Below are positions 440 to 30,896 of a stretch of 30,896 bases of DNA, one piece after another; position 1 is the first letter of the stretch; every line of letters begins with the position of its first letter. The stretch is from a virus, in IMG/VR virus record IMGVR_UViG_3300034068_000853, positions 1-30,896 of that record; one strand, written 5' to 3'. Under the pieces are notes generated by a model. It was not told the DNA's origin. It worked only from the letters and a program-made list of their open reading frames with translations, and made no database searches. Made by a program: the position numbers and the translations under genes.

Positions 440-1290
440 CCACAACAATGAAGCGTTCACAATTGCGCGAAACCCGATCATTGAATGTCCACGATTTGCA
501 GATGCGATCCAACGATGATGGATCACTGACCTTCAGCGGTTATGCTTCAATGACCGGTGTGCCCTATGCGGTCAATGATCTTCTTGGCGAATACCAAGAA
601 ACAATTGCGCGTGGCGCGTTCACCAAGGCTTTGCAAGAAAATGATGATGTGCGTTTGCTGGTCAATCACGATGGAATCCCTTTGGCCCGCACTAAGTCCG
701 GCACATTGGTTTTGTCTGAAGATGAAAACGGTTTGCGGTGTGAAGCGCAACTTGACCAATCTTCACCTTTGGTTCAAACTATCCGAAGCGCGATGCGGCG
801 TGGTGACCTTGATCAAATGTCATTTGCTTTTGCCGTGGTCAGGCAAGAATGGTCACAGGATTACACACAGCGCACAATCAATGAATGCAGGCTGTTTGAT
901 GTTTCCGTGGTGACCTACCCTGCCAGCCCAAGCACGACCGCTGATTTGCGGTCGGCTGTGGTTCGATCTGTTGCGGCCAATGTTTCCACCGGTCGGGTGG
1001 ATGAAATCCTGTTTGAATTGCGGAACAATCGCGATTTGTCACCGGCCAATCTTGCGTTGCTTGAACAATTACTTTCAAGCATCAAAGATGCGGCTGAAAC
1101 AATTCACAGCGTGGGTGATGGTCTTGATGAAGCATCTGGCGCGGTTGCCGAAATGATCGGCACACCAACCGAAGATGCGCCGGCCGAAGATGCACCAATG
1201 GATGAAGTGCCCATGGAAGATGCACCAATGGAAGAAATTTCGCGCGGCATTGATCTTTCATTGGCCCGCGCCAAGGCTAGGCGTATCTGA
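436..1290 (+). CDS. prohead maturation protease (HK97 gp4-like)
   Basis: A 284-residue serine protease of the HK97 prohead (U35) family, which cleaves the capsid scaffold domain inside the procapsid. The core (about residues 15-170) shows the SGYASMTG strand, His78 in LLVNHDG and Ser129 in QMSFAF. Glu150 in INECRLFDVSVVTYPA is a plausible third catalytic residue. Residues 175-235 are probably helical. An acidic repeat (three copies of DAPM/DAPA-type units) follows near residues 245-265. The last residues, DLSLARAKARRI, closely resemble the end of the next gene. The start overlaps the portal stop (ATGA) and the stop overlaps the next ATG (TGATG), so translation is probably coupled. Confidence 0.92.
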   Translation: MTTTMKRSQLRETRSLNVHDLQMRSNDDGSLTFSGYASMTGVPYAVNDLLGEYQETIARGAFTKALQENDDVRLLVNHDGIPLARTKSGTLVLSEDENGLRCEAQLDQSSPLVQTIRSAMRRGDLDQMSFAFAVVRQEWSQDYTQRTINECRLFDVSVVTYPASPSTTADLRSAVVRSVAANVSTGRVDEILFELRNNRDLSPANLALLEQLLSSIKDAAETIHSVGDGLDEASGAVAEMIGTPTEDAPAEDAPMDEVPMEDAPMEEISRGIDLSLARAKARRI

Positions 1291-1697
1291 TGCCGGTTGC
1301 CACAATCTGCGACATTGACGACACCCTACTTTCCAAAGGTTCACCGGTTCAGTCTGTCATTGATTATGTGAACAACCTTGATGGTGTGGTGTTTGTTGTC
1401 ACGGGCCGGAACGAATCAGAGCGTGCCGGCACGATTGCTGATTTGAAATCCGCTGGTGTGGTGTATGAAAAACTTTTCATGAACCCCGATTCGGCCACCA
1501 CAACATCAGAATTCAAAGGCAAGGTCGCTGAAGATTTGTTGAAAGATTATGATGTGACCTTGGCCATTGACAACAACGCCGACAACAGGGCCGCGTTTGA
1601 TGCGTTGGGAATTCCCACCCTTGATCCTGCCGACATTGCTTCTTCTTCGCGGTGTTTGCATTTGTCCCTTGCGCGTGCAATTGCCCGCAGGGTTTGA
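1290..1697 (+). CDS. HAD-superfamily phosphatase, like the phosphatase half of polynucleotide kinase
   Basis: A 135-residue HAD phosphohydrolase. Motif I is DIDDTLL (nucleophile Asp8, acid/base Asp10), motif II is VVTGR (Thr38), a Lys at 76 or 78 could serve motif III, and motif IV is AIDNNADNR (Asp94, Asp98). The order and the LFMNPDS segment recall the 3'-phosphatase domain of T4 polynucleotide kinase, so removal of 3'-phosphates from nucleic acid ends is a reasonable guess; other small phosphate substrates are possible. It sits between the protease and the major capsid gene, an unusual place for an enzyme. Its final residues HLSLARAIARRV repeat the protease tail, which suggests joint targeting to the procapsid. 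Confidence 0.8.
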   Translation: MPVATICDIDDTLLSKGSPVQSVIDYVNNLDGVVFVVTGRNESERAGTIADLKSAGVVYEKLFMNPDSATTTSEFKGKVAEDLLKDYDVTLAIDNNADNRAAFDALGIPTLDPADIASSSRCLHLSLARAIARRV

Positions 1698-1815: not shown

Positions 1816-3135
1816 ATGGCTTTGTCTGATCGCGTGGCCGAACAGCGCACCGAAATTCAATCCAAGATCGATGCGCTTATTGCCACCGCCGAAACCGAAT
1901 CCCGCACCGCTTTGACCGATGACGAAACCAGCACTTTCAATGCGCTGGTTTCTGAGCGTGACAGCCTTGATGCACAGCACACTTCTTTGATTGCTGAAGA
2001 AGCCCGCAAGGCCACGGTTGCTGATGCACCCGCCGCCCGCACCGCTTCGGTGCAGGTTGTGTCTGAGCCTTCGACCTACCGCAAGGGCGACCCTTCTTCG
2101 CCTTCGTACTTCCGCGACCTGACCGCCGCTTCGTTGAACCGTGGCGATTCACAGGGTGCTGTGGAGCGTTTGCGCCGTTCCGACATGGAACAGCGTGCCA
2201 TTTCCACCACCGATGGTGGCATTGGTGAATTCGTGCCACCAGCATGGATGACCGCTGACTATGTTGCCCTTGCCCGCGCTGGCCGTGTGACCGCTGACCT
2301 GTTCAGCAAGCAAGCACTACCAACCGGCACTGACAGCATCAACCTTCCGAAGATCACCACCGGTGCATCAACGGCCGAACAGTCTTCCCAAAACAGTGCT
2401 GTTTCCAACACTGACATGGTGACCACTTCGGTTGTCGGCAATGTTGCAACCATCGCTGGCCAGCAGGTCGTTTCGGTTCAATTGGTGGAGCAATCACCGG
2501 TGAACCTTGACCAGATCATCTTGGCTGACCTTGCGGCTGACTACGCCACGCGCCTTGATGTTTTCTGCCTAAGCAACAACGCAACCGGCAAGAAGGGCAT
2601 CTTGAATGTTTCTTCAACTTCGGCCAGCACTTACACTGACGCATCCCCCACGGTTGCGGAATTGTACCCAAAGATCGCGGATGTAATTCAGCAGATCGCA
2701 TCCAACCGGTTTTTGCCGGCTGATGCAATCGTGATGCACCCTCGCCGATGGGGTTTCTTCTTGGCCGCGCTTGATGGTCAGAATCGCCCATTGGTTGTGC
2801 CGGCGGCTAACTCACCTTACAACGCCGGTGGCGTTGCAGACAGCGTTGCTGGCCAAGGTTCGGTTGGCACGCTTCTTGGTCTGCCTGTGTACCTTGATGC
2901 CAACATTCCCACAAACAGTGGTGCTGGCACGAACCAAGACACCATCATTGCTGGTCGTTTCAGTGATCTGGTTTTGTTCGAAGGTTCACAGCGTGCAGAG
3001 GCATTCCGCGAAACGAAGGCTGACCAACTTTCCGTGTTGTTCCGTCTTTACAATTACGCGGCAATTGTCACTGAGCGTTTCCCCAAGTCCATTGGACTTG
3101 TCACCGGAACAGGTCTGGCCACCCCGACCTTCTAA
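1816..3135 (+). CDS. major capsid protein (HK97 fold) with N-terminal scaffold domain
   Basis: A 439-residue HK97-type major capsid protein. Residues 1 to about 75 form a charged, coiled-coil delta/scaffold domain; a linker to about residue 105 should contain the protease cleavage site. The mature part shows the usual pattern: QRAISTTDGGIGEFVPPAW, strands around LPKITTG, HPRRWGFFLAALD and the C-terminal FRLYNYAAIVTERFP. The ATG at 1816 is chosen because GAAAGGAAAG lies just upstream and because the protein then starts with the scaffold helix. The frame is open further upstream (from 1741), but that sequence has no family resemblance. It is the likely substrate of the protease at 436-1290. Confidence 0.95.
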   Translation: MALSDRVAEQRTEIQSKIDALIATAETESRTALTDDETSTFNALVSERDSLDAQHTSLIAEEARKATVADAPAARTASVQVVSEPSTYRKGDPSSPSYFRDLTAASLNRGDSQGAVERLRRSDMEQRAISTTDGGIGEFVPPAWMTADYVALARAGRVTADLFSKQALPTGTDSINLPKITTGASTAEQSSQNSAVSNTDMVTTSVVGNVATIAGQQVVSVQLVEQSPVNLDQIILADLAADYATRLDVFCLSNNATGKKGILNVSSTSASTYTDASPTVAELYPKIADVIQQIASNRFLPADAIVMHPRRWGFFLAALDGQNRPLVVPAANSPYNAGGVADSVAGQGSVGTLLGLPVYLDANIPTNSGAGTNQDTIIAGRFSDLVLFEGSQRAEAFRETKADQLSVLFRLYNYAAIVTERFPKSIGLVTGTGLATPTF

Positions 3136-3163
3136 TTTCGGTTCAACCCTTGGCGGGTTCTCT

Positions 3164-3192
3164 CACATCCAAACCCAAAAGGTTTGGGTGTG
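3164..3192 (+). terminator. 12-bp hairpin after the capsid gene
   Basis: A near-perfect 12-bp stem (3164-3175 with 3181-3192, one G-U pair) with a CAAAA loop. A smaller AACCC/GGGTT hairpin lies just upstream. No T-run follows, so it may act as a partial terminator or as a 3' stabiliser that raises capsid mRNA over downstream messages. Confidence 0.55.
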
Positions 3193-3237
3193 GGGGAATT
3201 TGCCAAAACATTTCACAACACTTTGATTGGATTGATG

Positions 3238-3420
3238 ATGGACAACGAAACCGCGATCAATGCTTACCAACGCGAATTGCATTCCGCAATCGTTCACAAA
3301 CTACCGCGCGAAAAGGTCGAAGCGATCCGCGCCGAATTGGCCGCGCTTGGTGTGAAGCCTGATGTTGAAACCGCTGGTGCGGGTTCAGCCGCTAAGCGCA
3401 CCCGCAAAACAGCATCCTGA
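3238..3420 (+). CDS. small hypothetical head-region protein
   Basis: A 60-residue protein, not recognised. It has a predicted helical body (AINAYQRELHSAIVHKLPREKVEAIRAEL) and a basic tail, AAKRTRKTAS. Two ATGs lie in tandem (3235 and 3238) with GGA about seven bases upstream; either could be used. Small proteins of this size commonly follow the capsid gene in actinophages, where decoration or connector-associated roles have been suggested, but nothing here proves a role. The preceding hairpin separates it from the capsid transcript. Confidence 0.6.
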   Translation: MDNETAINAYQRELHSAIVHKLPREKVEAIRAELAALGVKPDVETAGAGSAAKRTRKTAS

Positions 3421-3457
3421 TTTTTTCTTCAATACTTTGTGAAAGGTGGTGTGACCA

Positions 3458-5365
3458 ATGGCCAGCGCGTACCCATCGGGCTTTGATTCGTTAGCGAAAC
3501 CCACTGAAACCACGCTTGAAGACGACGCGGGTTTTGAACATGACATTGTTCACACCAATGAAGCCAACGCAATTGAAGCGGTGCAAACCACCCTTGGCTT
3601 GAACCCGCAAGGCGCGTTTGCCACGGTTGATGCACGCATTGATGACCTTGAAGTGTTGGGCAAACCTGTTTTGTCAAAGGTGCGAAACAGCACAGGTGCA
3701 ACCTTGACCAAGGGAACAGCGGTCTATTTGTCGGGTGCTACCGGCAACCATGTGAATGTGACCAAGGCTTTGGCCACATCTGATGCGACTTCGGCCCGCA
3801 CCCATGGTTTCATCTATTCCGACATTGCCAACAATGCTGATGGCTACGTCATCGTCGAAGGGTATTTGGAAGGCTTAGACACCAGCGCGGCGGCAAGCGA
3901 TGGGCAAATTGTGTATCTGTCTGGTTCTGTTGCTGGTGGGTGGACTGTCACCAAGCCTGTTGCACCAATTCACATGGTCTATTTGGGCGTAATTGCCCGC
4001 AAAAATCCTAGTGTTGGCGCAATCTATGTGAAGGTTCAAAACGGTTTCGAATTGGACGAAATCCACGATGTGTTGATTGTGTCTGAGGCCAATGGCGATT
4101 TGTTGAAATACGATTCGGCATCAGGGCTGTGGAAGAATGCGGCCCAATCAACTTTGACTGTCACGCAATCGCAGGTCACTAACCTGACCACCGATTTGGC
4201 CGGCAAGGTGGGAACGGCCCGCACGATCAGCACAACCGCACCTTTGGCTGGCGGTGGCGACCTTTCCGCTGATCGAACCTTGACCATTGCTGATGCAACC
4301 ACATCGGTGAAGGGTGCGGTTCAACTTACCGATTCAACTTCTTCAACATCGACCACCACGGCTGCGACACCCAACGCGGTGAAGTCGGCTTACGATTTGG
4401 CCAATGGTGCTGTGCCCAAATCCACTGTGACCACAACCGGTGATCTGATTGTGGCCAATGGCGCGTCATCTGTGACGCGGTTAGCGGCTGGCACTAGCGG
4501 GCAGGTCTTGACCGCGAACGGTGCGGGCGTTGCGCCGACTTACCAAGCGGCGGCCGGTGATGGCAAATTATTTGTGCAAACCGGTTCGGCAACACCAAGC
4601 AACGCCAATGGCAACAACAATGATTTCATGGTTTTGGTTTATGATGCTTCAGCCACAACCCGCGCCCGCCTGATCGGCCCAAAGACCGCTGGTGCGTGGC
4701 CTACCGGTGGACAAATTGACAGCGATGGAAACCAAATCATGTTGCCAATTCGTTCAAAAACGATGCGATCCGGCGATTTGATTTCCGGTTGGGAAGTCAG
4801 GTACGCAGATTTTACCGCAACAGGTTCAGCCCCTAGTGATTTTCAAAAAGATGGCACATTTGGTGGGGCATGGTATTCATCAACTAGCGGAACATCGGCG
4901 GCTTGGTGTCGCAACCGCACGCCGTCATCCGCGCCCCTAGCCTTTTTGTCTGTTCAATTTCAGATCACAACATTGCCCGAAGCAGGCCGGTTTTTGTATG
5001 TTGGGAACATTGCCTATTCTGGCGGTGTGTATGGTTATTGCGCAAAAATTTCAAGCACAGGCGCGGTTTTGTTGCAAAGCGAAGATGCGTTTTCCGGAAG
5101 CATAACTTTGGATAGTGGCATGACAGTGGCCGCTAATGATTTCATTTTGTTTGAACGGTTTGGCCATCGTTTGACCATTCAAAAAACATCTGGCACAGCG
5201 CGGGAATGGTTGGGCCAAGACAATGCCACGGTTGCAAACCGCCCGCTTATTGGCAGGGCGGAAGCAACACCATCAACTTATGGCGCAATTTTTTCGGTTC
5301 AATCCTTTGGTTTGTGCACAGATAGCGCAAGTGTTCGCATCAACAATCCGGTCTTTCAAGGGTGA
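3458..5365 (+). CDS. large fibre/decoration protein in the head module
   Basis: A 635-residue fibre-like protein. Residues 1-70 form an N-terminal attachment region. Residues 70-190 are rich in short beta motifs (TKGTAVYLSGATGNHVNV). Residues 230-370 contain segments typical of phage fibre shafts, such as APLAGGGDLSADRTLTI, ATTSVKGAVQL and TSGQVLTANGAG. The remaining 260 residues look like a beta-sandwich, lectin-like or receptor-binding head. GAAAGGTGG precedes the ATG. It lies between capsid and head-tail connector genes rather than near the tail tip, so a head fibre or capsid decoration role fits position; a tail-fibre role is the alternative. Confidence 0.75.
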   Translation: MASAYPSGFDSLAKPTETTLEDDAGFEHDIVHTNEANAIEAVQTTLGLNPQGAFATVDARIDDLEVLGKPVLSKVRNSTGATLTKGTAVYLSGATGNHVNVTKALATSDATSARTHGFIYSDIANNADGYVIVEGYLEGLDTSAAASDGQIVYLSGSVAGGWTVTKPVAPIHMVYLGVIARKNPSVGAIYVKVQNGFELDEIHDVLIVSEANGDLLKYDSASGLWKNAAQSTLTVTQSQVTNLTTDLAGKVGTARTISTTAPLAGGGDLSADRTLTIADATTSVKGAVQLTDSTSSTSTTTAATPNAVKSAYDLANGAVPKSTVTTTGDLIVANGASSVTRLAAGTSGQVLTANGAGVAPTYQAAAGDGKLFVQTGSATPSNANGNNNDFMVLVYDASATTRARLIGPKTAGAWPTGGQIDSDGNQIMLPIRSKTMRSGDLISGWEVRYADFTATGSAPSDFQKDGTFGGAWYSSTSGTSAAWCRNRTPSSAPLAFLSVQFQITTLPEAGRFLYVGNIAYSGGVYGYCAKISSTGAVLLQSEDAFSGSITLDSGMTVAANDFILFERFGHRLTIQKTSGTAREWLGQDNATVANRPLIGRAEATPSTYGAIFSVQSFGLCTDSASVRINNPVFQG

Positions 5366-29850: not shown

Positions 29851-30009
29851 ATGATTTCAACGGTTGTTGAATTGGTTGGGTTTGCTTTGCTGGTTTTGTC
29901 GGCATTGGTTTTGTTTGGTGTTGGTGTTGCGCTGGCCGTTGCCGGTGTTTGTTGTTTGGTGATTGGTTATTTCGCGGCCGGTTTGCCAACGAAAGGTGAC
30001 CGGTCATGA
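29851..30009 (+). CDS. 52-residue membrane protein between terminase and portal
   Basis: A very hydrophobic short protein (residues 4-44), enough for one long or two short membrane spans, with a small charged end, PTKGDRS. AGGCGG precedes ATG 29851. Its stop overlaps the portal ATG (ATGA). A membrane protein is not needed for packaging, so it may have another role such as membrane modification or superinfection control; no family is recognised. Confidence 0.62.
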   Translation: MISTVVELVGFALLVLSALVLFGVGVALAVAGVCCLVIGYFAAGLPTKGDRS

Positions 30010-30896
30010 GCATTCTTCGCCGTAATGTCGAACAAAGATCAGGGCCTTTTCCCGATCCGATCATTCCGCCAAATTCACAGGCTGGCATTTTGTCAAGTGC
30101 TGGCACATTGGTCACCCCTGATTCGGTGTTGCGCATCGCGACTGTGTATGGGTGCGTGCGCATCATTGCTGAATCTGTGTCTTCAACCCCGCTTTATGTG
30201 TACCAAATGAATGGGAACATCAAGCAACGCGCCACCGATCCGGCCATGACGGATCGTTTGAACAACCTTTTTGTTGATCTGAATGGTGACCCTTTGCCTT
30301 TGTGGAATGGTGTCCACCGGTGGATCATGTCATTGGCGGTTCGCGGGAACGCTTACAGCGCAATCGTTGAACGCTCTGGCAAGTACCCAACCGGCATTGT
30401 TCCCCTGCACCCTGATGATGTTTCGGTGAAGCCGAAGCGCGAAGGCCAGCGCATTAGTGGCTGGTCGTGGGAAGTCGGGCGCGAACCCTTCCCAACCGAA
30501 GATTTGGTTCACATTCCCTTGATGGTTTCTGGTGCTGGCCCACTAGGCATTGGCCCATTGGAAGCGAAAGAAACCTTTGGGTTGGCTTTGGCGGCCCAAC
30601 AATTTGGTTCATCCTTCTTTGGTCAGGGCGCAACCGTGTCTGGTGTCATTGAAGTTGATGGTGCTTTGACCGCCGATGATGCCCGCGTGATTGCGGCTTC
30701 ATGGAATGAATCACATGGTGGTTTGAACAAAGCACATTTGCCAGCGGTTTTGACCGGTGGTGCATCGTTCAAACCAATCAGTGTGACACCGGAACAGGCA
30801 CAATTTTTGGAAACCCGCGCCTTTCAACGCACTGACATCATGGCTTTGTTTGGTGTCCCGCCACACATGGTTGGTGACACAGCGGCTTCAACATCA
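30006..30896 (+). CDS. portal protein, N-terminal part (3' truncated by window edge)
   Basis: The first 297 residues of the HK97-type portal protein, open to the last base. Recognisable parts are SVLRIATVYGCVRIIAESVS (residues 40-59), the helical crown region, LNGDPLPLWNGVHRWIMSLA, and the late FQRTDIMALFGVPPHMVGDT segment. That segment is normally followed in this family by about 45-55 residues before the point where base 2 of the window begins. The ATG overlaps the stop of the membrane protein gene. Confidence 0.93.
   Translation, partial: MSILRRNVEQRSGPFPDPIIPPNSQAGILSSAGTLVTPDSVLRIATVYGCVRIIAESVSSTPLYVYQMNGNIKQRATDPAMTDRLNNLFVDLNGDPLPLWNGVHRWIMSLAVRGNAYSAIVERSGKYPTGIVPLHPDDVSVKPKREGQRISGWSWEVGREPFPTEDLVHIPLMVSGAGPLGIGPLEAKETFGLALAAQQFGSSFFGQGATVSGVIEVDGALTADDARVIAASWNESHGGLNKAHLPAVLTGGASFKPISVTPEQAQFLETRAFQRTDIMALFGVPPHMVGDTAASTS

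Follow-up and report, generated by a model that had tools for sequence, protein, structure and literature searches.

It is poorly understood by which route the maturation protease enters the shell in HK97-type phages whose capsid protein includes its own scaffold, and the internal enzymes of small siphophages have been little explored. Both issues are raised by the head gene locus of the uncultured virus analyzed here (the window, the whole stretch of 30,896 nucleotides), in which the prohead protease and the product of the adjacent gene, a HAD phosphatase, end in nearly the same C-terminal tail. Such a tail, common to the protease and a neighboring enzyme, is a candidate docking peptide, and the question is whether, as a sequence-only reading of the locus had proposed, it is a signal that brings the enzyme into the head.

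Gene organization of the head locus

The window starts with the C-terminal part of the portal protein (positions 2–439). The portal gene is split across the window ends (30006–30896 and 1–439), suggesting a complete genome of approximately 31 kb, opened inside this gene. On the plus strand follows the S78 prohead (head maturation) protease of 284 amino acids (436–1290; Pfam Peptidase_S78, 2.6e-38; PHROG 80, head maturation protease, 1.8e-54), the assignment of which is secure (132 bits versus a curated cut-off of 21, flanked by portal and capsid families). It is followed by the HAD phosphatase of 135 amino acids (1290–1697, plus strand; Pfam Acid_phosphat_B (HAD), 2.8e-9; PHROG 415, 2.4e-13) and by an HK97-type major capsid protein (MCP) with an N-terminal scaffold (delta-like) region (ATG at 1816, extending to 3135, plus strand; Pfam Phage_capsid, 2.3e-18; PHROG 2263, 2e-57). 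The protease and HAD genes overlap by 1 base in a TGATG stop-start motif (1288–1292, plus strand), and their translation is likely to be coupled, as inferred from the sequence alone. A frameshift fusion of the two was considered and rejected, given that the open stretch of the HAD frame begins only 3 codons before the ATG and that no classical slippery sequence was seen.

In the structural model of the protease, an acidic, Pro/Met-rich variable linker (amino acids 241–272; 1156–1251, plus strand) is predicted to be disordered (pLDDT about 33–39), whereas the C-terminal tail (amino acids 274–284; 1255–1287, plus strand) is predicted to form a short helix (residues 274–283) with low to moderate confidence.

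The protease and the HAD phosphatase share a C-terminal tail

The protease ends with SRGIDLSLARAKARRI, its tail being LSLARAKARRI, and the HAD phosphatase ends with SRCLHLSLARAIARRV, with the tail LSLARAIARRV (amino acids 125–135; 1662–1694, plus strand) located outside the HAD fold. In the clade of the window, the C-terminal BLOSUM62 scores of the 2 proteins are 46–54, compared to a mean of 12 and a maximum of 36 in a null distribution built from about 30,000 random pairs of C-termini (Gumbel p of about 3e-6 to 2e-7 for the pairs of the clade), which rules out chance resemblance. The tails are identical at 9 of 11 residues, but none of the 9 shared residues is encoded by the same codon; hence, the tails are not a recent DNA repeat, and a recent DNA duplication can be excluded as their source. 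Thus, 2 claims of the sequence-only reading, namely, that the adjacent proteins end in nearly the same tail and that the underlying DNA has diverged at synonymous sites, held, with the open reading frames and tails being as described. The arrangement also does not qualify as a nested protease-scaffold pair of the herpesvirus or lambda type, since the HAD phosphatase is encoded by a separate gene, in another frame and with different codons.

The tail is rare. When 2.9 million viral contigs were scanned for the translated motif, LSLARAxARR followed by a stop codon was recovered in only 7 of them, in 6 of which it occurs twice. Within the window, no further tail-bearing proteins were found, the only other match being an internal LTLAR in another open reading frame.

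The tail is conserved and is a functional element of the protease

Six related contigs, representing only about 3 lineages, carry both genes with both tails, the amino acids of which are unchanged. Codon differences among these relatives are exclusively synonymous in both tails, with no nonsynonymous change in that of the protease, unlike in the acidic linker of the protease and the body of the HAD phosphatase, which accumulate amino acid changes between the window and its relatives. The tail was also compared with that of a further contig, L118, the protease of which is 62% identical to that of the window and in which no HAD gene was found in the sequence examined. The L118 tail is identical at all 11 residues even though 9 of the 11 codons differ, all by synonymous changes; in the linker, by contrast, the amino acid is changed at 26 of the 32 codons. 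Given that the tail is present, with its amino acids kept, where no HAD gene was found, it is a functional part of the protease in its own right. The same plan is retained in more distant S78 proteases, which have a catalytic domain, a variable linker and a short tail, the latter often resembling LxLARAxA (L122, L123, L125, L152, L154, and L187).

These results support the earlier claim that the amino acids of the tail are under selection. Absence of the tail from homologues of both proteins would have refuted the sequence-only reading as a whole, but it is conserved in clade homologues of the protease and of the HAD phosphatase alike. Its interpretation has to be refined in one respect: the tail is the protease's own and is best seen as a docking peptide borrowed by the phosphatase, rather than as a signal invented for the latter.

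The HAD tail might instead be a leftover without function, generated by a duplication or insertion event at the protease gene's 3′ end, but this is highly unlikely. The adjacency of the 2 genes, together with a fused protein in which a HAD domain sits between linker and tail (L023, see below), would be compatible with such an origin. However, accumulation of synonymous changes without a single amino acid change in both tails disfavors it, as does the independent repetition of the pattern in a second protein family and with a different tail.

Alternatively, the tail could be mainly a processing site, with both proteins being trimmed by the protease at an arginine before the tail, which would then be a propeptide without a targeting role. 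Indeed, before most tails there is an arginine with a small and then a hydrophobic residue after it (SRGI, SRCL, ARGI, SRSL, PRGL), similar to the probable MCP junction ExRAI. Nevertheless, we consider this explanation very unlikely: the arginine is missing in L118 and L122, so that a shared cleavage motif before the tail is only partial, and 11 invariant residues downstream would not be needed for cleavage.

The HAD phosphatase is repeatedly joined to the prohead protease

The AlphaFold model of the HAD phosphatase has a pLDDT of about 91–95 over residues 1–110, and its best Foldseek match is the 3′-phosphatase of T4 Pnkp (5uj0/1rrc; TM 0.68–0.75). Residues D8, D10, T12, and K76, corresponding to the DxDxT nucleophile motif and the catalytic lysine, are invariant in 32 relatives. 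Thus, by fold and catalytic residues, the protein is a Pnkp 3′-phosphatase-like HAD, although its activity and substrate are inferred. While sharing the fold and the DxDxT catalytic residues with the T4 Pnkp domain, it lacks the kinase domain and instead carries the protease-like tail; residues 119–135 lie outside the confident core, with pLDDT under 50 for most of them. No isolate encoding this HAD phosphatase, or the Cys-rich protein of contig L279 described below, was found among 50,697 phage records, and neither searches of bacterial genomes nor a sequence search of solved structures with the protease yielded anything useful.

Profile scans for the HAD domain revealed many uncultured phages in which it is fused N-terminally to the S78 protease, mostly with the MCP gene next. 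In one scan, the 2 domains were found in a single open reading frame at 67 of 74 newly fetched HAD loci, and 5 of the 7 loci without a visible fusion run off the end of the sequence examined; among non-redundant representatives, 23 of 36 HADs are fused. A different arrangement is found in L023, with the MCP 78% identical to that of the window over the part compared. Here, a single polypeptide has the order protease-HAD-linker-tail, with the HAD located between the protease domain and the acidic linker, which ends with RGLGLSLARAKAARVRI. Collectively, the HAD phosphatase is repeatedly joined to the prohead protease, either by fusion or, in the clade of the window, by a copied tail. A common origin of the HADs of the window and L023 is neither demonstrated nor rejected (AU p 0.096), and the former tends to group with free-standing HADs (support 93/61). 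Separately, L060, L241, L264, and many other loci contain large multi-domain open reading frames combining a Pnkp-like HAD with the S78 protease, sometimes together with a Cys-rich domain or a DUF5824-like region.

Homologous HADs encoded away from a protease lack such a tail and have other ends (often KKFW...). This bears on the possibility that the tail, being basic, serves to bring both enzymes to DNA by binding nucleic acid, without any relation to loading. The basic character of the tails, in the window as well as in the Cys-rich family considered next, and the resemblance of the HAD fold to a polynucleotide 3′-phosphatase would be consistent with this scenario. However, if the tail bound DNA in general, homologous HADs encoded elsewhere should carry it too, but they do not, and its sequence should not track that of the local protease or scaffold, rendering this alternative very unlikely.

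Cys-rich proteins encoded next to the protease carry similar tails

Every protease C-terminus was compared with every other open reading frame in the fetched loci, against the score null. A single additional pair scored above it, in L264: a HAD-protease fusion is followed there by the gene for a Cys-rich (weakly HiPIP-like) protein (4610–4966) which ends with KLDMKRRRLDLLKSI, the protease ending with LLALKKKRLEMLKGI. A dedicated scan identified 9 contigs in which a stand-alone Cys-rich gene adjoins the S78 protease gene, lying between it and the MCP gene, and encodes a protease-like basic tail (L264, L252, L256, L259, L262, L267, L268, L276, and L278). All 9 proteins extend 22–30 amino acids past the domain and are basic at the end, resembling protease tails, whereas most of the 42 distinct non-adjacent stand-alone copies end 5–14 residues past the domain, without such tails (Mann–Whitney p 1.3e-6). 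This p value overstates the evidence because related contigs are not independent. Furthermore, the scores of the tails with those of their own proteases vary from 14 to 39, being weak in L252 (14), L256 (22), and L276 (22); L264, L267, and L268 stand out as the strongest individual cases. Similar to the HAD, the Cys-rich domain is also fused into the protease open reading frame, in L060, L239, L241, and several others. L281 contains a single open reading frame of 609 amino acids (2861–4690) joining the Cys-rich domain, the S78 protease, and the MCP domain.

As a neighbor control, a small conserved open reading frame between the protease and MCP genes (MATKEQII...KETR) showed no protease-like tail. 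This small protein (MATKEQII..AILEVAGNP...KETR) is encoded in several related phages (L019, 6534–6761; L115, 4816–4995; L245, 4973–5149; L190, 4455–4616).

A tail copied from the scaffolding protein

Of the individual observations, the one that speaks most clearly for docking, although it comes from one contig only, is that in L279. The Cys-rich protein of this contig shares 62% identity with the L264 protein and is encoded between the genes for a scaffolding protein (PHROG 4708, 4.5e-36) and the MCP, with the scaffolding and Cys-rich genes being adjacent (the pair occupies 2215–2979 and 2995–3378). The C-terminus of the Cys-rich protein, DTMTSEEVMAAKSAGRLDFLLGK, copies that of the scaffolding protein, QSMSPEEVNAARRAGRLNKLLGIN (score 52, p about 3e-7), but does not resemble protease tails (scores of only 11–22). 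Thus, the tail matches whichever procapsid-entering core protein is encoded locally. Across the HAD phosphatase, the Cys-rich family, and L279, the same rule holds: a stand-alone protein has the tail only when its gene adjoins that of the protease or scaffold. The check proposed in the sequence-only reading, to look for the tail on other proteins encoded next to protease genes, was passed in this form, with the Cys-rich family obeying the rule.

The L279 case also bears on the possibility that the 2 tails contact each other, with the phosphatase being carried into the head through its attachment to the protease and not to the shell. Near-identity of the tails, both predicted to be helical, and the covalent fusion of HAD and protease in other phages could be cited in its favor. 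However, the full tail is kept in L118 without a HAD and a single tail is present on the fused protein of L023, indicating that it functions without a second tail-bearing protein, and the tail copied in L279 is that of the scaffold. We therefore regard tail-to-tail contact as unlikely. Counting against the docking interpretation itself, a uniformly amphipathic tail helix is unsupported, with hydrophobic-moment percentiles ranging from 6 to 98 across lineages.

Proposed mechanism and relationship to known systems

In the scenario we favor, the C-terminal tail would be a short procapsid-docking peptide. The S78 protease, with the tail at the end of its flexible acidic linker, would be incorporated while the shell assembles, the tail probably binding the MCP or its N-terminal scaffold region (the docking partner is inferred). 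The adjacent, TGATG-coupled HAD gene carries a copy of the tail, and the phosphatase would be co-assembled into the procapsid; related phages would reach the same end by fusing the HAD to the protease. Subsequently, the phosphatase might be retained or ejected with the DNA, perhaps healing 3′-phosphate ends. The comparative evidence supports this interpretation because the tail is conserved in the clade, absent from unlinked HADs, replaced by fusion elsewhere, and repeated in the Cys-rich family and with a scaffold tail. Tail sharing, amino acid conservation, the fusions, tail absence away from the protease, and the scaffold swap in L279 are shown. Loading of an enzyme into the head by a docking peptide borrowed from a core protein is likely, but docking, loading, and ejection are inferred rather than measured. 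The corresponding claim of the sequence-only reading is thus supported by comparison, in the absence of procapsid or virion data.

Short terminal peptides that carry internal proteins into the prohead are known. The capsid-targeting sequences (CTS) of T4 (IPII, IPIII) and the N-terminus of P1 DarB are sufficient for prohead entry of reporters (PMC9958956, PMC9024508). However, these are N-terminal and have not been described as copies of a protease or scaffold C-terminus, whereas the sequence shared in the window lies at the extreme C-terminus, is common to the protease, and occurs in a small HK97-type phage. It thus does not meet the positional definition of a T4-type CTS, and, whereas a T4-type CTS is cleaved off by the prohead protease as the head matures, an arginine-containing motif before the tail, a possible cleavage site, is present in some lineages only. 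In herpesviruses, the protease precursor and a second protein (UL26/UL26.5) share C-terminal residues required for capsid assembly (PMC12474303), but in that case one gene yields both, the second as a nested product, unlike the separate genes, unrelated enzyme, and different codons of the window. The protease of phage SPN3US retains activity when truncated by 26 residues at the C-terminus but is then missing from proheads, and its C-terminal propeptide has been proposed to target the protease into the prohead (PMC7411985); a second protein bearing that tail is not known to have been described. Finally, the basic C-terminus of the P22 scaffold binds the coat protein and carries fused cargo in (PMC9962691). 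That tag is engineered; L279 would be a natural counterpart, while the window uses the protease tail instead. In the proposed scenario, the window would unite features of these systems, with an enzyme bearing a copy of the tail by which the protease itself docks. In the open-access literature searched, we found no paper describing a borrowed C-terminal tail, which is not proof of absence. Thus, whereas capsid-targeting sequences are known from T4 and P1, a C-terminal form of such sequences, borrowed from the protease or scaffold and varying with the core protein encoded nearby, appears to be new.

Implications for phage biology

A bolder reading, towards which the evidence tilts only modestly, is that a C-terminal address code that can be reprogrammed is in use among many uncultured tailed phages, whereby an enzyme gene beside the head genes copies the C-terminus of a docking core protein, either the protease or the scaffold, and its product is loaded into the head and perhaps delivered to the next host. 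Such a code would encompass at least 2 cargo families (Pnkp-like 3′-phosphatases and Cys-rich, HiPIP-like proteins) and 2 tail sources, with direct fusion as the alternative. Comparison of the C-termini encoded between the portal and MCP genes would predict new virion-internal proteins from sequence, and the tail provides a compact tag, placed at the C-terminus, with which cargo could be directed into HK97-type shells. For phages of the window type, the shared tail suggests that they carry a 3′-phosphatase in the particle.
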